Shown: positions 7,730 through 19,123 of the stretch, one piece after another | How positions within the stretch are numbered: the stretch's first letter is position 1 | How the letters are laid out: the number at the start of each line of letters is the position of its first letter | Origin: a virus | Length of the DNA stretch: 27,838 bases | IMG/VR virus record: IMGVR_UViG_3300035661_000272 | Location: 1 to 27,838 of that record | Direction: 5' to 3' (one strand) | Program-made: the position numbers and the translations under genes | Notes under the pieces: model-generated | Seen by the model: the letters and a program-made list of their open reading frames with translations, nothing else | The model's database searches: none | What the model was told of the DNA's origin: nothing

Positions 7730-8260
7730 TTAAACCTCCACAAAAATCATGTTATCAGAATCAAGATACTTCTCTAATTCTTCGTATGTTTCGGCATAAA
7801 TCTCTTTTTCTGCCGATTCAACATCGGTTGACTTTACCGAAGTGAGGCAAGTCCAAACGACCTCGGTATGGCAATATCCGAAACGCTTTGCCCCAACAGG
7901 AGAATTGTAGATATGTGGCCCGCGAATACGACCGTTAAAGTTCTCGGACCTTACCGTGATCTCACCCGCATTGAGAATAATCATCTGGGGAACCTTGTAA
8001 ATCCTGCCTGTCAAAACGGTTCCTCTAGGCGCGATCATCGTCCTTGCGTAGATACCAGCGCCGAAATGATGCTCAATAGGGATCTCAACTTGCGGAAGCT
8101 CCAAAAGTCTCGTTTCAACCGCCATGATCCGTTCTCGGAAGGTCATGGACGGATCGTCAAAATTCATCAAACCCGACAGATCGTTCTTCTCCGCCAGGGA
8201 GACGGATTGCTTGGCTTTCACCAGTCCGTTAGGCCGTAAGATCAATGACTTCTCCATCAT
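7730..8260 (-). CDS. Cupin-like (jelly-roll) phage accessory protein
   Basis: The 176-aa protein carries a compact beta domain at residues about 58-150. Recognisable parts are IPIEHHFGAGIYARTMIAPRG, then GTVLTGRIYK, an AGEITV strand, GPHIYNSPVGAKRFGYCHTE and VVWTCLTS. This matches a small cupin or RmlC-like family widely found beside structural genes in phages. His64, His65, His116 and His131 are possible metal ligands by analogy. The first ATG overlaps the end of the acetyltransferase-like gene by 32 bases and no strong ribosome site is visible, so translation is probably coupled. A later start is possible. The function of this family is not established, and I give no substrate. Confidence 0.7.
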   Translation of the reverse strand: MMEKSLILRPNGLVKAKQSVSLAEKNDLSGLMNFDDPSMTFRERIMAVETRLLELPQVEIPIEHHFGAGIYARTMIAPRGTVLTGRIYKVPQMIILNAGEITVRSENFNGRIRGPHIYNSPVGAKRFGYCHTEVVWTCLTSVKSTDVESAEKEIYAETYEELEKYLDSDNMIFVEV

Positions 8261-8804
8261 TTACAAAGATAGGGAGTTCGGGGTGAGCAGGGAGGATGGG
8301 GGGAATATCCTCGATCTTGCTCTTGACCCCCCACCAATACAGGGCCTTGCCGCCCCAACCAGCCTTGGCGGTGCACTTGAAAATCTCTTCGTCCAGCAGG
8401 TCCAGGTAGTCAATGTGGCCCGTGATGCGGTTGCCGTGCAGCCCAACCTCCTTGAACCCCAAGGCAATTAGGTTCCTACCGGCCCTCGGGTTATTGGCCT
8501 TTACCGATCCATAGAGCCGGTTGCAATCGGTATCCGTGAAGATCCGCTTGATCGCTTTCCGCATGGCCCCAACCGCTTCCATGCCCCATGCCTCGGGCAG
8601 AAACGCGGTAAGCCCAAGATACTGCCCATCCCCAAGAGCCTCTGCCATCATCACTCCAGACCCAGGAACCACCAGTGTCCACATGATCTCAATGGACTCA
8701 GAAGCATCCAGTTCGTGATCCCCATGCCAGATATGAGGACGCACCTTGGGGTGGTTAAGCACCGAGTTGATGAATGGCACATCAGCCTTAGTTGCTAGGT
8801 GCAT
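8229..8804 (-). CDS. GNAT-type N-acetyltransferase-like protein
   Basis: In this 191-aa protein, residues about 80-120 show the acetyl-CoA binding region typical of the GNAT fold: a helix with MRKAIKRIFTDTDCNRLYG, then VKANNPRAGRNLIALGF and EVG. The asparagine/arginine turn and the LGF motif are the usual GNAT landmarks. The N-terminus resembles a short beta-alpha start of the same fold. The ATG overlaps the stop of the upstream fibre-like gene (TAATG). It is paired with the cupin-like gene downstream and sits inside the virion operon, so it may modify a virion or host protein late in infection, but the substrate is unknown. Similar acetyltransferase-like genes occur near tail genes in other podoviruses. 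Confidence 0.75.
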   Translation of the reverse strand: MHLATKADVPFINSVLNHPKVRPHIWHGDHELDASESIEIMWTLVVPGSGVMMAEALGDGQYLGLTAFLPEAWGMEAVGAMRKAIKRIFTDTDCNRLYGSVKANNPRAGRNLIALGFKEVGLHGNRITGHIDYLDLLDEEIFKCTAKAGWGGKALYWWGVKSKIEDIPPILPAHPELPIFVNDGEVIDLTA

Positions 8805-9392: not shown

Positions 9393-9920
9393 TCACTCCG
9401 CTGTAATTATAGCCCCATATTCATCTTCCACAACCTCAAGATCAGTATGTATATCAGTAATACCCAATCCAAGCCCATCTGTTACGATATTACCAGACTC
9501 ATCCATAATGATTTCTTCGGATTCGGTCAATTCCGAAACGATCAGATCAAGGTTCGCAATCCCATCAGCCCCAGCAGGTCCAGTAGGCCCAGTAGGCCCA
9601 TCAGCCCCAGCAGGCCCAGTAGGTCCAGCAGGTCCAGTAGGTCCATCAGCCCCAGCAGGTCCAGTAGGTCCAGCAGGTCCCTGTGCCCCAGCAGGTCCAG
9701 CAGGCCCAGTAGGCCCATCAGCCCCAGCAGGTCCAGTAGGTCCAGCAGGTCCCTGTGCCCCAGCGCCACTTGATCCCGAGAATGATATGCCCCCACCACC
9801 AGAAGGGGATTGGCTTGTCGAAGCGATGGTTTGGACCTGAACTTTGGCCTGTTTTTGGATAAGTTCAAGCGCCCGATTGAGGTCGGGGAGAGTCAGGTTT
9901 TGAACGCGATGGATGGTCAA
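9393..9920 (-). CDS. Collagen-like fibre protein
   Basis: This 175-aa protein has 23 uninterrupted Gly-X-Y triplets at residues about 54-122 (GPA, GPT, GAD, GAQ), which predicts a trimeric collagen-type triple helix. A short helical N-terminus (residues 1-36) could attach to the virion and an acidic C-terminus (about 123-175) could be a trimerisation or tip segment. The best start is TTG at 9920, which overlaps the upstream stop as TTGA; no ATG is available nearby in frame. Collagen-like stalks are well known in phage fibres. It lies between a 148-aa protein and another fibre-like protein. Confidence 0.75.
9555..9761. repeat. Collagen-coding nested repeat
   Basis: The DNA is a run of 9-bp units (ccagcaggt, ccagtaggt, ccagtaggc) arranged in longer blocks; the block containing ccctgtgccccagcaggt occurs twice. 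All changes are in triplets, so gain or loss of units would lengthen or shorten the Gly-X-Y stalk without a frameshift. Confidence 0.9.
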
Positions 9921-10363
9921 CTGGGACTCTGCATGTATTCGTATGTGAACTCAACTGCCCTTACATCGGCATCCCCACAGAACTCTACATCAATCATGTA
10001 ACCGCGAGTTCCAATAGGGATTCCCAACCTGCGGCTCTTGGATGGGGTTTCCGTAAGCGTAACTGTCCCGTCTGACACCCAACTCCCGTCTACATAAACC
10101 CGGACATACAAACTTCCCTTGCCATGGAACTCAACCTGCTGGAACCGCTTTCTCCCAACGGGATCCCCGGCATCGTATTTTTTCATGTCGCTCAGATTAT
10201 GGAGCGCCTGTTCACCTGTTCTGATGTGCAGAGGAATCCGCGTAACGCCGTAGGGAGGGGCAAAACGATAGACAGCTCGCCCATTGAGTGTTACGGGGGC
10301 TGCGCTTGAAAGCGTGGATTCAGCGGAGTAGAAGGTGTTGAAGTTGTCTTGTGTGGAAGCCAT
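9917..10363 (-). CDS. Unidentified virion-operon protein (148 aa)
   Basis: The ATG at 10363 overlaps the stop of the upstream kelch protein by one base (TAATG), and its stop overlaps the next gene's TTG start. The sequence is beta-rich: [34 protein letters not shown] and [20 protein letters not shown] look like strands of a small sandwich or jelly-roll domain. I see no catalytic motif and do not recognise the family. Position between receptor-type proteins suggests a small virion component, perhaps a fibre adaptor. That is inferred from context only. Confidence 0.6.
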
Positions 10364-12888
10364 TAGAACGCCCCGTCAAATGTTTGGCAACTCGTGGAAT
10401 TTGGCGACATTGTGAAGGGCCTACCGTCTGAAAGAACAACGCCTCCTGTGGGACTTACGGAAATTCCCATGTAGTCAATAATCGGAGACGAATAAGTATT
10501 AGAAGAAATGTCATAAGTGATGGAATAAGTTGCATCAACAATAAGGATTTTAGACCCAGATGAGACTAAAAACCTGCTCATTGTGCTACTATTCGCACTA
10601 CTCGTATAGCCAGCTAATGCTGTCCATGAACCATCAACGATTGAATACTTAGCGGAATATCTAGTTGTATTATCACCATTACCATACCCCATGCAATAAA
10701 TAAACCCGTCACCTGGGTTCACCAGGTCTGCCTTAGCGCTGGAATATCCAATTGATGGCGGGGTTGTCGCAGTGACCCAAGAATTGCTAGAAATTTTATA
10801 TATCACTAGATGGGTTTGGTTATCCCCGCCATAGTCCCCCATCACCATTACCCTGTCGGAATCCAACTGGATAATCATATATGGAGGGGTGTTGGGAGAA
10901 GCACCTGGGGCATCGGCTAATCGCGTCCATGTATTAAGTGTCTCGCTATAAATCTGAGCAATATACCCAGCCCCGTAACAATACACAAATACTCTACCAT
11001 CATAAAGATTAAGCGCTTCATATCTAGCCCCCCCACCACTACCCACGATCATATCCGGTCCATCCCCCCAGGTCCCGAGTGAGGGATCGTAAATTTTCGT
11101 GGTTTTGGATGATGGAGCGCCCAGCCCCGTTAAAAGCGCCTTACCACTTGGGAGTAAAACCAATTGTTTGTGGCCGATTAGCCCATTGTTCGTAGTACCT
11201 AAATTCCCAGTAGATGACCAGGAATCAAGAACTGGGTCATAAAGATAGCTTGAGCCATCATTCCTATTTACCAGAAGCACCTTACCGCTATTGAGTGTTA
11301 CGCTCAAAGATGTTGGGTCTATAGACGGCATCGTTGCCCGCTGTGTCCAACCTACTTTAAATAATTGGATACCACGGCTTGCGGTTGCAGTCCCCCCCGT
11401 AACATTATCTATTGCGGTTACAGTCCCATACATTGATACTGTATCCCCTAACTTTGTGACTGGGTTTCCGATCTTAACTTCACCATCATCAAACTGCCAA
11501 GAATAAGTAAATGTATCCCCCGGCATACCCTCCGTTGTCGCAATTGCCTGCCAAGTGATAGTTGAATCGGTTTCTGCATATCCTAGTTGGACATTCGGCA
11601 CACTGTATGCCAATTGTTTTACTGTTACCTGTGTGCTAGGTGTCTCATAAACGGCTGTGCCAGAGGTTGCTACAACGCTATAGGCCCCAGATGCCGATGA
11701 TGGCGCATTAACCACCGAATAGGTTGAGGCTGTCGCTCCTGGAATGGGCGTACCATCCTTCTTCCACTGGTAAGTGGTGGGCTTGTTTGCCGTAGATGCA
11801 GCGTTAAGTGAAAGAGCCCCTCCCTCCGGCATAACAACTGGTGTGCTAGGGCTAATTTGTGCAGTTACCGCTTCACTAGATGCCAACGCGCTAATCGTAA
11901 GTGTGACTGTATTTGATGTAGTGGTTCCATTGGCATTAGTGATTGTGCAGTGGTAAGAGTCCCCATTAGCGCAAGAACTTACGAGTCCAGGCCAAGCATT
12001 GGGTATCACAAGGGAAATCGAAGAGTCAAACCCGCCATAATTAGGTAAAAGTGTTGGGTCAACGACGCTTGGGTATGTGCTCCCCCCCAACGGGATTTGC
12101 ACCCCATTTCTAAACCAAGCTATGGTTGGGGAAGATGGACTCATGTATCTAATGCCAATATCCCCAGCATTATACATTGTCCCTAATACATCATGCGGGA
12201 GCGACAGACTAGACGGCTGAAGCGTTATGATTGGTGCGTTGGTTGATGAAAGGAGAGAAACGGAAGCTCGGGTATCCCTCGTGTCCGCGCTAAATGGAGA
12301 CCCACCCGAAATTGTGGCATACGCCTTATATCTGTTGACAGTCCCAGCTACGACATTGGGTGTGGTATATGTTTGTACCGAGTAATCTGCGGGTGTATTA
12401 AATGTATGCGTGAAAACGGTTGTTTCGGTGCCCAGTGTTGGATAAACCTGTTGTGATGTAATAGAAAGTACCAGTGGATAAGAAGCAGTTGTAATTGGGA
12501 ACCCCGAAACTTCTGGCACCGCAAATACACTTAAAATCTTAGCTGTATTGTTTGTGACTACCGTTGGGTCTTGGTAGGACGAAAGATAGCTTAACGCCGG
12601 ATAAACAACTTCCGCAAACCCATCAAGGGGTTTTAGGCGATAAACAGACGGTGGATACTGCGTCTGGTTCCAGAAAGTGATTAGACCAGACGCCAGATTT
12701 GGATTTGGTGGGACAACCACGCTGATTGTTATTGCATTCCCGTCTGTTGCGGTGTCTGATTCCGTATGGCCTAACGCATCAAATGACCAATAAACGGGAT
12801 ACGGGCCTGAAAACGAGAATGAATAGGTAACAGTTTGCCCAACCGTAATCGTACCGGATGGTTCTACAATACTCGTCAGGTAGCTCAT
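10363..12888 (-). CDS. Ig-like / PKD-like / kelch propeller virion protein, receptor-binding candidate
   Basis: The 841-aa start is set at ATG 12888, which overlaps the upstream stop as ATGA; a TTG 39 bases earlier is less likely. Residues 1-215 are beta-rich. Two Ig-like domains follow at about 216-333 (IAWFRNGVQIP, YHCTITNANG) and 341-424 (TYQWKKDGTPIPGA, GAYSVVATSG), then a PKD-like domain at about 427-510 (TYSWQFDDGE). Residues about 513-841 carry at least six kelch-type blades with spaced motifs such as YDPVLDSW, YDPSLGTWGDGP, YSETLNTWTRL, YKISSNSW and YSIVDGSWTAL (Trp 557, 607, 654, 704 and 755). The modular surface-type architecture and location after the nozzle-like gene suggest a tail appendage that contacts the host. 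Receptor binding is inference. Confidence 0.75.
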   Translation of the reverse strand: MSYLTSIVEPSGTITVGQTVTYSFSFSGPYPVYWSFDALGHTESDTATDGNAITISVVVPPNPNLASGLITFWNQTQYPPSVYRLKPLDGFAEVVYPALSYLSSYQDPTVVTNNTAKILSVFAVPEVSGFPITTASYPLVLSITSQQVYPTLGTETTVFTHTFNTPADYSVQTYTTPNVVAGTVNRYKAYATISGGSPFSADTRDTRASVSLLSSTNAPIITLQPSSLSLPHDVLGTMYNAGDIGIRYMSPSSPTIAWFRNGVQIPLGGSTYPSVVDPTLLPNYGGFDSSISLVIPNAWPGLVSSCANGDSYHCTITNANGTTTSNTVTLTISALASSEAVTAQISPSTPVVMPEGGALSLNAASTANKPTTYQWKKDGTPIPGATASTYSVVNAPSSASGAYSVVATSGTAVYETPSTQVTVKQLAYSVPNVQLGYAETDSTITWQAIATTEGMPGDTFTYSWQFDDGEVKIGNPVTKLGDTVSMYGTVTAIDNVTGGTATASRGIQLFKVGWTQRATMPSIDPTSLSVTLNSGKVLLVNRNDGSSYLYDPVLDSWSSTGNLGTTNNGLIGHKQLVLLPSGKALLTGLGAPSSKTTKIYDPSLGTWGDGPDMIVGSGGGARYEALNLYDGRVFVYCYGAGYIAQIYSETLNTWTRLADAPGASPNTPPYMIIQLDSDRVMVMGDYGGDNQTHLVIYKISSNSWVTATTPPSIGYSSAKADLVNPGDGFIYCMGYGNGDNTTRYSAKYSIVDGSWTALAGYTSSANSSTMSRFLVSSGSKILIVDATYSITYDISSNTYSSPIIDYMGISVSPTGGVVLSDGRPFTMSPNSTSCQTFDGAF

Positions 12889-15347
12889 GGGGGACTCGTA
12901 ATGGTTACGGTTGTTAAAGGTGCCCAATTATTGAGCAAAACATACGCATTTTCAAACTCATCCACATGGGCATCAAGCGCCTTCATTCCTAGCGTGGTGA
13001 TTGGGAATCCAGGGATCTGCATATCCACCACGAAGGTCGTATTAGCCTCATAATCTGGGCCTGAATAGAATAGGTAATACTTACCCAGGTGGTAGAACGA
13101 TTTGATGTATTTATTGTAACCCTCAATGGTCCGGGTGTTATTGAGGGTGTAGGAATACTGATCCCCCTTGATCCCATCTTCTCCGGCTAGATCCGCGTAG
13201 TTGCGGGTCATAATGGTAGGCATCCACCAGAAGGGATAGGGCGTGACGAGTCTTGAAGGTGCAGTAAGCGTGGTTCCGGGGATACGAGTATCCGTCAGGC
13301 ACTCGGCATGAGAACCATCAAACAACATGATCCCCCGCTTGGACAGATACATCAGGCCCTTATCGGTTTTCTGAACCGAATGGGGAGCAAAACAGCCATC
13401 CTCAGCATGGGTCTTGAATACGCTCATCCCAGTCGCGGTATTACCGTCAATGCGGTAAATTGCATCCTCGCAAAGAACGATTAACCCCTGTGCGAACGAA
13501 GCCAGCGCAACCGGCTGGTATCCGAAGGGCAGGGAGAATGTCTCTGGCCAAGCATCAGGCTGAAGAATTGGCGTCCAACGGACGGTATGCCCGGAAATAC
13601 CGAACAGCATCCCATAGTGAGACTCAATCCCCTGTAACCCAATCGGTGCCCTATCGTAATCCACATTCTGCCCATTCTCTGAGTAGAAAGAGGTTGGGGT
13701 TCCACCCAGTGCAGAGAATGGTTTGGCATCCGCATAGGTTAGCTTATCCAACGGTTCCTCGGATACAAGGTTCCAGATACCCTGCTCATTCCGGTAGATC
13801 CTCCAGCGCCAATAGTAGTTGTTTTTAGGCATCCATTTGATAAGCGAGAAGGTGAGGGCAGTAGACGCCCGCAAGGGCACCATAAAGGTCGTTGAGGACA
13901 GTTTCTTGGCCTTGTAGAGCCCCGCCACGGTCTGACCCGTGCCACTCCCGACGAGGTAGATCATGTCATCGTCTGATACGACCCCAGTGGATGTATAGGT
14001 CACAAGAGCCTTGACTGGTTGGACGGAGGCCGTGGCGGGTAGATTGGAAACACCCTGCTGCGTTGCGGTTCCCGTACCAGCCCCAGCACCAGTCGCCGTG
14101 AAAACAATCCCTACCGTATTGGCCGATGCACCAATGAGCGTGAAGTCCGTTGTCCCGATGGTCGTGATCGCATAGGTATAGCCGACCACAAAGGAGCCAG
14201 CCGTTGTCGGGGCCGCAGGCACCACATCCGAAGGGAGATTGAGGTTCTTAACCGCAAATCGGTTCGCATCAATGGCAATAATGTCGTAAGTCTGCCCCTG
14301 GTATGTAGGATCAGCAAACCCAGAGAAGTATCCCTTATCATCGGTCGTGAACCCATGCCCTACCTTGAAAAAGGTGGTCATCAAGGTGGAACTGCTATAC
14401 GAGACTGCAACCCCACCAAGAGGAACTGTCCCGTAAGAAGATGCGCTGGCTGGGCAGCTCCCGGTCCCCGTGACTACGGTTGATACTCCATTGGCATCGG
14501 TCACATCGAAGAAACCGTCATTGAGGAAGTCGCGGGTAATGAGCCTACCCTGAGCCGCCGTAATTTCCTGAGACACAGAGGACAGCCCGGATTCATCAAA
14601 AACCCCATTCACATTCCTGAGATACGAATAGGCATAGGTGAACGGCTGGGTCTGCTCAAACTGGGTGGCATTGTCCCCGGAAGCCGTGACCGCGCCCGTA
14701 TCGTCATAACTCAACGAAGATGGGGGAAGTTCTGCCAATCTGTATTGCTCAGTATGCGTCCCCTGAAATACGATATACCCCGTAGCTTTGGGAACCTGCC
14801 CCCAAGTCAGTTTTACAGATGCACCCTTATGCGCCGTGTCCGCAATCGTAACAGTGATGGGGGCCGTTGGGGGCATAATACCATCTGCTGTTTTTGCGGA
14901 AATTCGGTACAGTCTATCCCCATCGGGGAGATTCCCAGCCCCCGAGTAGGAGATTGTCGCTGATAACCCAGATGGAGACAGGTCACTAGACTTGGCGATG
15001 GACAGAGCAGTCTTGGGCCTTGCAGTCCCGAGCAGAGCCGTCACCCCACCAATCGTCTTGGTTGGGTATTTGCCTTCTTCCGTGGTGTAGACTCGCTCGA
15101 TGCCACCAATATACTCGCCGGTATGGTCCTGCCAGTTATCAGAGTGGAACCACCGACCGCGATAAGACCAAGACCTTGATGTGGTCGGTGGAGCTGTAAA
15201 TTGCCACTCAGGGGCCTTGAACGGGCGTGGAGAGCCGGAGCGCAGGTCAACATTGTCTAGGATCGTAGAGAAACCTTCCGGGATGATGGCCTTGTCGCCA
15301 ACAACATTGATTCCCTTATCAAAAGAGATCCGGTAGGTTTTGCTCAT
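12885..15347 (-). CDS. Tail nozzle-like protein (podovirus tubular protein B type)
   Basis: This 820-aa protein starts at ATG 15347 overlapping the upstream stop (TAATG). The N-terminus (YRISFDKGINVVGDKAIIPE) is typical of large podovirus tail proteins of the T7 gp12 class. An Fn3-like stretch lies near residues 125-215 (VKLTWGQVPKATGYIVFQG). Residues about 383-431 are a module also found in the adaptor at 16672-17484. The C-terminal half has propeller-like strands: HYGMLFGISGHTVRWTPI, FAQGLIVLCEDAIYRIDG, SVQKTDKGLMYLSKRGI and MLFDGS. Length and order after the adaptors support a nozzle role, closing the tail tube. Sequence identity to T7 gp12 itself was not tested. Confidence 0.7.
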   Translation of the reverse strand: MSKTYRISFDKGINVVGDKAIIPEGFSTILDNVDLRSGSPRPFKAPEWQFTAPPTTSRSWSYRGRWFHSDNWQDHTGEYIGGIERVYTTEEGKYPTKTIGGVTALLGTARPKTALSIAKSSDLSPSGLSATISYSGAGNLPDGDRLYRISAKTADGIMPPTAPITVTIADTAHKGASVKLTWGQVPKATGYIVFQGTHTEQYRLAELPPSSLSYDDTGAVTASGDNATQFEQTQPFTYAYSYLRNVNGVFDESGLSSVSQEITAAQGRLITRDFLNDGFFDVTDANGVSTVVTGTGSCPASASSYGTVPLGGVAVSYSSSTLMTTFFKVGHGFTTDDKGYFSGFADPTYQGQTYDIIAIDANRFAVKNLNLPSDVVPAAPTTAGSFVVGYTYAITTIGTTDFTLIGASANTVGIVFTATGAGAGTGTATQQGVSNLPATASVQPVKALVTYTSTGVVSDDDMIYLVGSGTGQTVAGLYKAKKLSSTTFMVPLRASTALTFSLIKWMPKNNYYWRWRIYRNEQGIWNLVSEEPLDKLTYADAKPFSALGGTPTSFYSENGQNVDYDRAPIGLQGIESHYGMLFGISGHTVRWTPILQPDAWPETFSLPFGYQPVALASFAQGLIVLCEDAIYRIDGNTATGMSVFKTHAEDGCFAPHSVQKTDKGLMYLSKRGIMLFDGSHAECLTDTRIPGTTLTAPSRLVTPYPFWWMPTIMTRNYADLAGEDGIKGDQYSYTLNNTRTIEGYNKYIKSFYHLGKYYLFYSGPDYEANTTFVVDMQIPGFPITTLGMKALDAHVDEFENAYVLLNNWAPLTTVTITSPP
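14055..14201 (-). repeat. Shared ~48-aa module, copy in nozzle-like gene
   Basis: Encodes residues 383-431 of the nozzle-like protein: GYTYAITTIGTTDFTLIGAS, ANTVG, FTATGAGAGTGTATQ. The same module, with matching order and spacing, is encoded at 16957-17100. Over the core GTTDFTLIGASANTVG the two proteins are identical, while the DNA differs at many third codon positions. Confidence 0.85.
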
Positions 15348-16009: not shown

Positions 16010-16672
16010 TTACATCTCCCTTTCGGCCTGAGTCCGCGTCTGTTGAATCTTGGCGAGCAAAACTGGGTCAGCATACCCGATGAGTTGGTTGAACTTCTGC
16101 ATGAAGGCTTCCGCGAGTTGGAGGCTCTGTCCGTCACCATCCAGATTCAGAAGCCAGGAGGCTGCGGCATACTTCAGGAACTCGTTATGCGGATCGGGGA
16201 TACGGGCATCAACGGTATCCGTATCTAGCGTAAGATCAACCGGCTTTTGCACATACCCGACTACGGCGGTATAGGCTGGGTTTGGGATAGGGATAAGTTT
16301 GATCTTGGACCCGGACCAGAGAACCCAACGCTTAGGGGGGAACCCAGCGGTGGCCTGCGCGATGCTTTGCCACACATTAGACTTCATAGACTCAAAGGAC
16401 ACGCTAGACTCAACAAGTTCAGTCAGTGCGGTCCCGCCGACATTGAAACTGACCCTTGTTACCCGCAAATAGTCAGTCGGGATTGCTACGAAACCGCTTG
16501 CATCAGGGACAATAGGGGAGGACTCTGTATAAGTCGCACCAGTCTTATTCGCGTATTCCTTGATCGCAAAATTGATCGCATCCTGATACATGGGGAGATC
16601 GTATGTAGAGTGCTGGGGATCGCCCACAAGATACTGGGTCCAATTACGAATGGTCGCAAGCGTCTGAGCCAT
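16010..16672 (-). CDS. Head-tail adaptor-like protein (second of two)
   Basis: The 220-aa protein starts with ATG 16672 overlapping the upstream stop (TGATG). An N-terminal helical part (YDLPMYQDAINFAIKEYANK) is followed by a beta domain (about 55-155: GFVAIPTDYLRVTRV, WVLWSGSKIKLIPIPNP) and C-terminal helices (ARIPDPHNEFLKYAAASWLL, LQLAEAFMQKFNQLIG). This helix-beta-helix plan is the one seen in podovirus connector adaptors (T7 gp11 or P22 gp4 type). It follows another protein with the same plan, so the two may form successive rings or one may be a tail-completion protein. The assignment rests on layout and order. Confidence 0.65.
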   Translation of the reverse strand: MAQTLATIRNWTQYLVGDPQHSTYDLPMYQDAINFAIKEYANKTGATYTESSPIVPDASGFVAIPTDYLRVTRVSFNVGGTALTELVESSVSFESMKSNVWQSIAQATAGFPPKRWVLWSGSKIKLIPIPNPAYTAVVGYVQKPVDLTLDTDTVDARIPDPHNEFLKYAAASWLLNLDGDGQSLQLAEAFMQKFNQLIGYADPVLLAKIQQTRTQAEREM

Positions 16673-17484
16673 CAGAAGGTTCTCCCAGGGTCAAACAAAG
16701 CCCTTTGACGACCCCCGAGAACCCGCCCCATCACCCTATCCCGGCCACTCTGGGCGAATAGCGCGATGGCCTTGAGGTTGCCCAACTCCCGGTTATGCAG
16801 AACCTCACGGTCCTTGGAAAGTTGCAGGTTTTGGCCGGGGCCTGGGAGCATCAAGATTGTGGCAAGCGCACCCGCTACGATACAGTCCTCAGCCTCGTCT
16901 GGCAGGGGGATTGTATCTATTTCACCAGTCGGGATCTCTGACACCGTGACTTCAAGCATCTGGGTCACTGTCCCGGTCCCTGCCCCAGCAGCAGTAGCCG
17001 TGAACTGGACCCCAACCGTATTGGCGGATGCCCCAATCAGGGTAAAATCGGTCGTTCCTACCGTCAGAATGTTGTATGTCCGGCCCGCGACTAGGTTTGT
17101 TACCGCTACACCCTGAGGTGAGGGGTATAACTTGATCTGCGAATTACCGAGGTAGGAATATCCGTTAGGGATTCCAGCCGGTAGATCCGGGTATTCATAC
17201 ACATTATTGATCGCCTGCTCGTTATACTCGTTCAAAACCCGCCAGTTTCCCTGCACATCAAGCAATCTGACGAGGGAAACGCGGTTGACGGTATAGCCGG
17301 TCGTTGGGACAAGTGTGATGGGATTGGACGGTGCCGAGATGTTGCTCAATTTCTCCTGAGCCAACATGGTTTGCCTGCAAATCTTCCGAACAGACTCCTG
17401 AATGGCAAAAATGGATCGCTCTTCCTCAATATCCTTACGCATTGGTTGGACTTTGGGAAGGAGGTCGCGAACCCTTAATGCCAT
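16672..17484 (-). CDS. Head-tail adaptor-like protein (first of two) with inserted module
   Basis: The 270-aa protein starts at ATG 17484 with GGGAGG six bases upstream. N-terminal helices (about 1-45) precede a beta domain (ITLVPTTGYTVNRVSLVRLL, YSYLGNSQIKLYPSPQG), and the C-terminus is helical (IPLPDEAEDCIVAGALATIL, LQLSKDREVLHNRELGNLKA). That is the plan of phage connector adaptors. Residues about 129-176 form a module (GTTDFTLIGASANTVG, then FTATAAGAGTGTVTQ) that is also present in the nozzle-like protein and that appears inserted between the beta domain and the last helices. The neighbouring order, capsid then adaptors then nozzle, supports a connector role. Confidence 0.7.
   Translation of the reverse strand: MALRVRDLLPKVQPMRKDIEEERSIFAIQESVRKICRQTMLAQEKLSNISAPSNPITLVPTTGYTVNRVSLVRLLDVQGNWRVLNEYNEQAINNVYEYPDLPAGIPNGYSYLGNSQIKLYPSPQGVAVTNLVAGRTYNILTVGTTDFTLIGASANTVGVQFTATAAGAGTGTVTQMLEVTVSEIPTGEIDTIPLPDEAEDCIVAGALATILMLPGPGQNLQLSKDREVLHNRELGNLKAIALFAQSGRDRVMGRVLGGRQRALFDPGRTF
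16957..17100 (-). repeat. Shared ~48-aa module, copy in adaptor gene
   Basis: Encodes residues 129-176 of the first adaptor-like protein (LVAGRTYNILTVG, TDFTLIGASANTVG, FTATAAGAGTGTVTQ) and matches the module at 14055-14201. It is flanked by sequence that fits the adaptor's own fold, which suggests insertion or duplication of the module. Confidence 0.85.
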
Positions 17485-17854: not shown

Positions 17855-19123
17855 TTAGTACAGAGGCACAAGAACAGCCGCCTCGGGCTTGACGAGCTTG
17901 TAACCAAACACATTCAGGCCGCTGATGCCCCAGCCGAAGGTGTCAGGAAGTTCAAGCTGGCGATGCTTCATGAACTGAGAAGCGAAGGCAAGCGAGGACT
18001 TGTGACCCACAAGGCAGTTGCTAGGAGCGCCAGAAGTGCCATTGGCGTTGAGGATGTTGTTGCTCATGTACACCTTCAACCCATCAATCTCACCGATGAA
18101 ACCATTCCGGATCGGGGAAGTGGTGTCGCCAGTGAAGTAAGCCTGGGCCAGAGGCCCCTGCTTCAGGATGTTGGCGTAATGGTTGCTGATGACCGCCCAT
18201 CGCTCACCATCGCGGGGGACATTCTGGTAGTCCAGAACTTCCTGCGCGTACTGAAGGGGCTGGAGGCTGTTCGCAGTAGTCAGGGTGGCGAGGGGAATAG
18301 CGGTGGAAGTGCCAATCTGCACAGCCGTTCCGCTCCAACCCACGGTATTAGCAAGCGCGATAGAAGCGGGGATGCCCTGAAGCACGGTCTTATCAACCGC
18401 AACCTTCATCTGCCAGCTTGCATCCTCAGTGATCTTCTCGATGAGGGCCAGATCGCTCTGGTAGTCATCAATGTAATCAACGCGGAAGGCGTAGAACTTC
18501 TGCTGGTCAATGTTCAGGATGATCTGCTCATCGCTGATGTCCTGATAGGTGATAGGGGCATTCACCGAGTAGTCGGAGATATTGACGGTGGGCACCTTGC
18601 GGATAACCACCTTATCGCCGAAACCGTTAATATCCGTTGTGTTATCGCTAGGCTCTTTATCCTAACTTCTGTGGCTTTCACCACAGTCCAGACTATATCT
18701 TATGCAAGAATCTTGTGGGTACTTGGTTTGGTTACCAAGTGATGATCCAGACCCACAGATGTCAAGCACCCCCGCACTCGTGTCCACTCTGGCTTCGGCA
18801 CCATCCGGTAAGCCTTGTGGTTAGTCGTTGAACCTTCCCCAAATTTCTTAGGGGCTAGGCTGCTGATTGCCCAATCCACGATCTTTTTGACCGTCGCGCT
18901 TGTCTTTTCAAACTTCGCTGTGGTGATCATGGCTTAAGGGTATCCCAGCAGTTCACGGGGTTGTTAAGGCAGAGCTAATATTTCAACCCTGCCATGCGGT
19001 GTTGGCAATGGCGGCGACAGCCGAAGAAGCATAGAACTTGTCCTGCATCTTGGCGGAATAGACTTGGGGAACAAAAGCCCCAGCCGAGAGGTTAGCACCG
19101 ATACGAGCGCCTGAGAGAGCCAT
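17855..19123 (-). CDS. Major capsid protein, split by a group I intron
   Basis: Exon 1 is 19123-18986 (46 codons), exon 2 is 18634-17855 (259 codons plus stop), giving 305 aa after splicing. Exon 1 starts with ATG after AAGGAG at seven bases and encodes MALSGARIGANLSAGAFVPQ, then VYSAKMQDKFYASSAVAAIA, NTAWQG. Exon 2 resumes with DINGFGDKVVIRKVPTV. The joined pattern, NTxxxG followed by a short spacer and FGDKVVIR, is the conserved N-terminal region of HK97-fold podovirus coat proteins. Later parts (NVPRDGERWAVISNHYANIL, IRNGFIGEIDGLKVYMSNNI, LNVFGYKLVKPEAA) fit the same family. Gene order (scaffold, decoration, capsid, adaptors) agrees. Reading straight through gives TGA as the first intron codon, so splicing is required for full-length protein. 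Confidence 0.9.
18635..18985 (-). ncRNA. Group I self-splicing intron in the capsid gene
   Basis: On the minus strand the four core elements are visible in order: P (AACTGCTGGGATA, about 18953-18941), Q (AATCAGCAGCC, 18868-18858), R (GTTCAACGACTAA, 18833-18821) and S (AAGATATAGTC, 18701-18691). P4 pairs CTGCTG (18951-18946) with CAGCAG (18865-18860). P7 pairs GACTA with TAGTC. P3 pairs CCCCGTG with TGCGGGG. P6 pairs CCCC with GGGG. P8 contains GTGGGT/ACCCAC and ACTTGGT/ACCAAGT, and P9 pairs CTGTGG with CCACAG. A hairpin GGCTT/AAGCC between P7 and P3' fits P7.1/P7.2 of subgroup IA. P1 pairs exon GGCAGGGT with guide GCTCTGCC, ending in U.G at the splice site. P10 pairs exon GATATT with intron AATATT. 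The last base is G. The intron is 351 nt with no recognisable homing endonuclease. Confidence 0.93.

Follow-up and report, generated by a model that had tools for sequence, protein, structure and literature searches.

Group I introns of the Bacillus phage SPO1/HMU type lie in DNA polymerase genes and encode HNH endonucleases (I-HmuI and relatives). An intron in a capsid gene is less common, as a sequence-only reading of the DNA analysed here had fairly remarked, but precedents exist: splicing of an intron in the major capsid protein (MCP) gene of mycobacteriophage LittleE (cluster J) has been shown by RT-PCR and N-terminal sequencing, and a further case, lactococcal phage Tuc2009 with an intron in a capsid gene, is cited there (PMC3706429). 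Metagenomic gut Jug phages carry many group I introns, some of them spliced according to metatranscriptome reads, and the parts of that report drawn on here name terL, nrdD and DNA polymerase genes as the interrupted genes, and not the MCP gene (PMC12363816). Likewise, a Bastillevirinae survey describes many phage group I introns in a text from which the word 'capsid' is absent (PMC11878797).

The DNA analysed here (the window) is a complete IMG/VR virus record of 27,838 bases, and its MCP gene is split on the minus strand. Comparison with related loci (denoted L followed by a number) makes it highly probable that the interruption is a self-splicing group I intron of the L8-homing-endonuclease class, which would have spread by homing and of which the window copy would now be a splicing-only form. 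Capsid-gene introns are known already from LittleE and the window element is another of that kind; it shares with the LittleE case a mobile-type intron within a phage MCP gene, a U as the last base of exon 1, a G as the last base of the intron and the existence of intronless relatives. However, the LittleE intron is ~819 bp, is typed by its authors as 'most likely group I', contains an antisense endonuclease reading frame with LAGLIDADG similarity, and splices in another capsid sequence, DLDRNNGTGGYAVP (PMC3706429). Among annotated phages, the top-ranked DNA match to the intron core was in Pseudomonas phages such as Pa_WF01/YH6 (75% identical across 25% of the query), whose introns, unlike that of the window, are in an RNA polymerase gene. 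The interest of the window intron comes from the natural series of alleles that surrounds it. Beyond the reach of the sequence-only reading were the empty and endonuclease-bearing alleles, the probable endonuclease loss in the window copy, and the occupation of this capsid codon in ~20 divergent phage lineages.

Exon 1 of the MCP gene (18986-19123, minus strand) has 46 codons, is preceded directly by a Shine-Dalgarno-like AGGAG, and ends in ...IANTAWQG, with GGT as its last codon. The intron follows at 18635-18985 (351 nt, minus strand, without homing endonuclease) and then exon 2 at 17855-18634 (minus strand, 259 codons), which matches PHROG 267 major head protein and Pfam Phage_capsid_4 (E 5.2e-9). 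Across the junctions the sequence runs from ...TGG CAG GGT at the 3' end of exon 1, through TGAAAT...CACAACG in the intron, to GAT ATT AAC at the 5' end of exon 2, so that an in-frame TGA is the first intron codon directly after exon 1. Deleting exactly 18985-18635 (351 nt) restores a 305-codon MCP frame with a predicted spliced junction of GGCAGGGT followed by GATATTAACGG, and the joined protein matches PHROG 267 at E 3.3e-46. The MCP of the intronless locus L002 is 98% identical to that of the window, and its structure model (mean pLDDT 72.5) is closest to HK97-fold capsids, with Mycobacterium phage Che8 as the top match (E 3.5e-15); judged on this model, the interrupted gene is an HK97-fold major capsid gene. 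The splice point corresponds to residues 46/47, just ahead of the first modelled strand (54-58), in an N-terminal part of modest confidence.

A cmscan of the window against all Rfam gave a single match, to the group I model RF00028 (18995-18669, minus strand; model positions 1-253, complete; 54.2 bits, E 2.4e-11; gathering score 50), which spans the entire catalytic core. The sequence-only reading had taken the interruption of the MCP gene for a group I intron and proposed this model as a check, and the RF00028 match together with the empty alleles described below bears it out; that reading had also named the lack of a covariance match combined with an independent start in exon 2 as what would speak against it, and the first half of this combination fails because the match exists. 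Helices P1, P3, P4, P5, P6, P6a, P7, P8, P9, P9.1 and a 6-bp P10 can all be placed in the window intron, all on the minus strand. P1 (18968-18993) pairs exon 1 sequence GGCAGGGU (18993-18986) with GCUCUGCC (18975-18968) and sets U.G at the 5' splice site, while P10 (18629-18982) pairs AAUAUU of L1 (18982-18977) with the first six nucleotides of exon 2, GAUAUU (18634-18629). P3 (18770-18960) is formed by CCCCGU (18960-18955) and GCGGGG (18775-18770), and P4 (18861-18950) by 18950-18944 and 18867-18861 with P5 nested within. The guanosine-binding helix P7 (18691-18834) joins R, GGUUCAACGACUA (18834-18822), to S, AGAUAUAGUC (18700-18691), through GACUA/UAGUC. P8 (18714-18757) pairs UGUGGGU (18757-18751) with ACCCACA (18720-18714) around loop L8 (18750-18721), the place of an HNH gene in L003 and L004. 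In the 3' part there follow the P9 hairpin (18669-18686; CUGUGGU GAAA GCCACAG) and P9.1 with the family signature GGAUAAAGAGCC..CGAUAAC (18648-18665, extending to 18641). By eye, a possible CCAC...GUGG pairing that encloses GGCUU...AAGCC can be made out between the P7 5' strand and the P3 3' strand, where an intron of subgroup IA would have its extra stem or stems (P7.1/P7.2).

Covariation was assessed over 21 introns, comprising the window, L003, 17 more at the capsid site and two from a site nearby. All 21 have T(U) as the last base of exon 1, G as that of the intron and a U.G pair closing P1; in the window these are GGCAGGGU/GCUCUGCC and a 3' end of ...AACG, and the P1 sequence varies along with the exon across the set. 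P3 is paired in 126/126 cells with 33 double changes, which fall in five of its six pairs; P7 is paired in 99/100, with a compensatory change of GACUA/UAGUC to GAUCA/UGAUC in L267 and in both introns of L159 (L159a, L159b); and P9 is paired in 139/140, with 58 double-change cells. When the partner strand was slid as a control, pairing of P3, P7 and P9 fell to 0.19-0.70. Covariation over the 21 related introns thus supports P1, P3, P7 and P9, including the P3/P7 pseudoknot core. For the other helices, 62/63 (P5), 42/42 (P6), 75/84 (P6a) and 93/105 (P9.1) cells are paired. The U.G of P1, P10 and terminal G of the sequence-only reading were all placed, and among its core stems P3, P7 and P9 hold by covariation and P4 and P6 could be positioned, while P8, which is unlike among the window, L003 and L004, is backed together with its in-loop hairpin by the closest relatives only. 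We dropped P8.1 as a family-wide helix, its conserved look being confined to the window, L003 and L140.

Empty, endonuclease-bearing and endonuclease-less states of the site occur in one phage group, all ~90-96% identical. In L002 and L005 the same MCP gene is uninterrupted and exactly 351 nt shorter (90-93% nucleotide identity), the site reading GGC followed by GAC ATT AAC in the context ...GCATGGCAGGGC then GACATTAACGG... Since these loci are near-identical with an uninterrupted gene, the intron boundaries have the support of an empty allele, the strongest evidence for them, in addition to that of folding, and the earlier placement at 18635-18985 (351 nt), given without the strand (minus), proves exact to the base. 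The same intron as in the window is present in L003 and in the partial L004 and L006. The L003 and L004 introns have 516 nt extra in loop L8, giving 867 nt in total for L003, and this sequence codes for an endonuclease of the HNH_3 type (E 3.4e-15) that also has helix-turn-helix segments, with GGAGGG ahead of its ATG; between L003 and L004 this gene differs by 18 synonymous nucleotides and six nonsynonymous codons. The L003/L004 form resembles the SPO1/HMU type in that its peripheral loop carries an HNH endonuclease, which would likewise bring about homing by cutting the intronless allele, and differs in the HNH_3 type with helix-turn-helix segments and in the window copy being without endonuclease. 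Within the nearest 100 nt of flank next to the 5' junction, intron-bearing copies differ from each other by 0-1 positions versus 6-7 to the empty allele, a slight likeness of the kind expected from co-conversion during homing, and no more than suggestive of it. With three allele states in existence, the life cycle of the intron (invasion, fixation, loss of the endonuclease, loss of the intron) becomes directly testable in natural phages.

That the RNA splices, that the endonuclease cuts and that the endonuclease was lost, not gained, are inferences from these comparisons. In the proposed mechanism, the intron RNA would fold P1 to P9 with a P3/P7 pseudoknot, an external guanosine would direct cleavage behind the final U of exon 1, in its last codon GGU, and exon 1 would be joined to exon 2 after the terminal G to give a 305-residue MCP; an unspliced message would stop at TGA, the first intron codon, and yield only 46 residues. 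The HNH endonuclease in L8 of L003 and L004 would cut the intronless MCP allele at conserved sequence, with repair copying the intron in, and the window copy would be an immobile, splicing-only form after endonuclease loss. As every virion needs hundreds of copies of the capsid protein, splicing must be very efficient; the intron may splice slowly or be inactive in part. Standard gene callers can be expected to split such MCP genes, and capsid-based phage surveys could therefore miss or truncate these phages.

The intron might instead be degenerate and non-splicing, with a truncated MCP or a fresh start in exon 2, a reading for which the missing endonuclease and an ORF with a GTG start inside exon 2 (17855-18610) can be cited. 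However, all core helices are intact, a dead intron is not expected to be tolerated in an essential capsid gene, and the exon 1 protein sequence is conserved among homologues, with six synonymous and no nonsynonymous differences between the window and the intronless allele. Over the whole joined frame, the window and L002 differ by 45 synonymous nucleotides versus seven nonsynonymous codons, which indicates purifying selection on that frame, and the intronless alleles together with the conserved exon 1 imply that the gene yields the joined protein despite the GTG-start ORF. We therefore hold a degenerate intron to be very improbable. Lower still do we rate an assembly artefact or chimera that fused an intron to the capsid gene, for although the window contig is metagenome-derived, the same intron-exon joins recur in the independent contigs L003, L004 and L006, and analogous joins in ~20 lineages. 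The window element appears, from its sequence, to be an ordinary, intact, endonuclease-less group I intron.

The direction of endonuclease change bears on the loss step alone, not on the intron itself. Neither Pfam nor PHROG detects a homing endonuclease in the window intron, which accordingly lacks this mark of a mobile intron, and neither finds one among the proteins scanned elsewhere on the contig. The intron does contain a 76-codon frame (18700-18930, minus strand), which we rejected as a functional gene (best Pfam E 0.09, no PHROG match): its ends are those of the 248-codon endonuclease frame of L003, with the same frame and TAA stop and 172 codons fewer, so that 516 nt are missing in frame. 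It is probably the residual tail of an HNH gene, and a functional protein from it is unlikely. The endonuclease-less 351-nt form could conversely be ancestral, L003 and L004 having recently gained the HNH gene in L8, and the next closest intron, in L140 (MCP ~60% identical), is likewise endonuclease-less. However, both endonuclease-less copies match HNH tail codons in frame with its stop, L140 keeping ...LHY..TKPS.. before the same stop, and in 14 endonuclease-bearing introns at the capsid site the gene occupies the same loop region. Because the window and L140 keep the HNH tail in frame, loss is the better reading and recent gain is doubtful; an in-frame deletion of 516 nt has most probably removed the homing endonuclease from the window copy.

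A query with the endonuclease led to L009, L010 and L012, which have related introns in MCP at the homologous codon boundary, and further lineages were found through a signature of the 3' part (GGATAAAGAGCCTNNCGATAAC) and through a P1 pattern. The intron 3' signature occurs in 86 IMG/VR contigs, and a signature scan of genome contigs gave five matches. In all, ~20 divergent lineages of uncultured phages, with MCPs mostly ~30-60% identical to each other, carry a related intron at the boundary between NT[D/N]YEG and [D/E]I, and separate Rfam matches were obtained for L010, L012, L279, L140, L290, L267, L163, L297, L154, L159, L340 and L344. Among the tabulated introns at the capsid site the endonuclease is sense in eight, antisense in six and absent in five; an HNH gene antisense to MCP and intron was seen in L010, L163, L110, L289, L282, the L154 second intron and L111. 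Intron presence is patchy, since the intron label changes eight times on a tree of 99 MCPs, with at least six changes forced by supported branches; the sampling of empty alleles extended no further than the best 80 loci of each scan. Distances between introns correlate with those between MCPs (Mantel r 0.68, falling to 0.52 when L003 is left out), which points to vertical descent within clades as well, and much of the distribution could reflect vertical descent with losses instead of frequent homing. Among annotated phages of the phage collection no intron was seen at the capsid site: all 60 MCP matches listed are single uninterrupted pieces, and in each of the 141 matching records a single place accounts for 80% or more of the coverage.

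Three of these lineages (L159, L154/L124 and L340/L344) have a second intron 9 nt upstream. The order is exon 1 ending in ...NTD or NSD (GAT), an intron, TAYGAGGGT, an intron and exon 3, the 9-nt micro-exon encoding Tyr-Glu-Gly and reading TATGAGGGT in L159 and L340. These tandem pairs of group I introns in MCP are located at L159:3003-3701, L340:5100-6262 and L344:1065-2223, and also occur in L154/L124. L159 gives two separate Rfam matches (51.9 and 57.0 bits), L340 and L344 two each at about 48 and 58 bits, 48 being just under the gathering score of 50, and in L154 the first intron alone is over the threshold. That the micro-exon lies inside one longer intron is ruled out by the two separate matches that flank it in L159, L340 and L344. 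Of the cores compared, those of the two L159 introns are nearest to one another, which points to local duplication; the nearest core to the L154 first intron belongs to another locus. The micro-exon would serve as the 3' exon (P10) of one ribozyme and the 5' exon (P1) of the next, and skipping it would stay in frame and lose Tyr-Glu-Gly, so that capsid splicing could yield two proteins. Taken together, it is probable that this capsid codon is a recurrent target of an HNH-driven intron family in ~20 lineages, with micro-exon assembly in three and possibly two protein forms. The open-access literature searched holds no description of micro-exons in phage group I introns, and their novelty is provisional.

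Related introns were also seen elsewhere. L144 has one of the same family at another, more N-terminal site in MCP, around codon 10, and introns with the same 3' signature occur in L125, L130, L179, L129, L175, L145, L153, L100, L102, L109 and L113, where the adjoining frames, on visual inspection, resemble genes for DnaK, ribonucleotide reductase, DNA polymerase III alpha and tail tape-measure proteins.

The remainder of the window apparently represents a tailed phage whose minus strand carries the head and tail genes, a Pfam search recovering portal (E 1.4e-18) and large terminase (E 2.2e-11); ARAGORN found no tRNA in the window. Two virion-region proteins (16672-17484 and 12885-15347, minus strand) have a common repeat-like segment, TDFTLIGASANTVGVQFTATAAGAGTGT and TDFTLIGASANTVGIVFTATGAGAGTGT. 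A protein with collagen-like Gly-Pro repeats (Pfam Collagen E 2.3e-12) lies near one with Ig-like domains and weak Kelch similarity (9393-9920 and 10363-12927, minus strand), and these are probably tail or fibre parts. Amid the tail genes, a weakly acetyltransferase-like protein (PHROG 1249, E 1.6e-4) is encoded at 8229-8804 on the minus strand.
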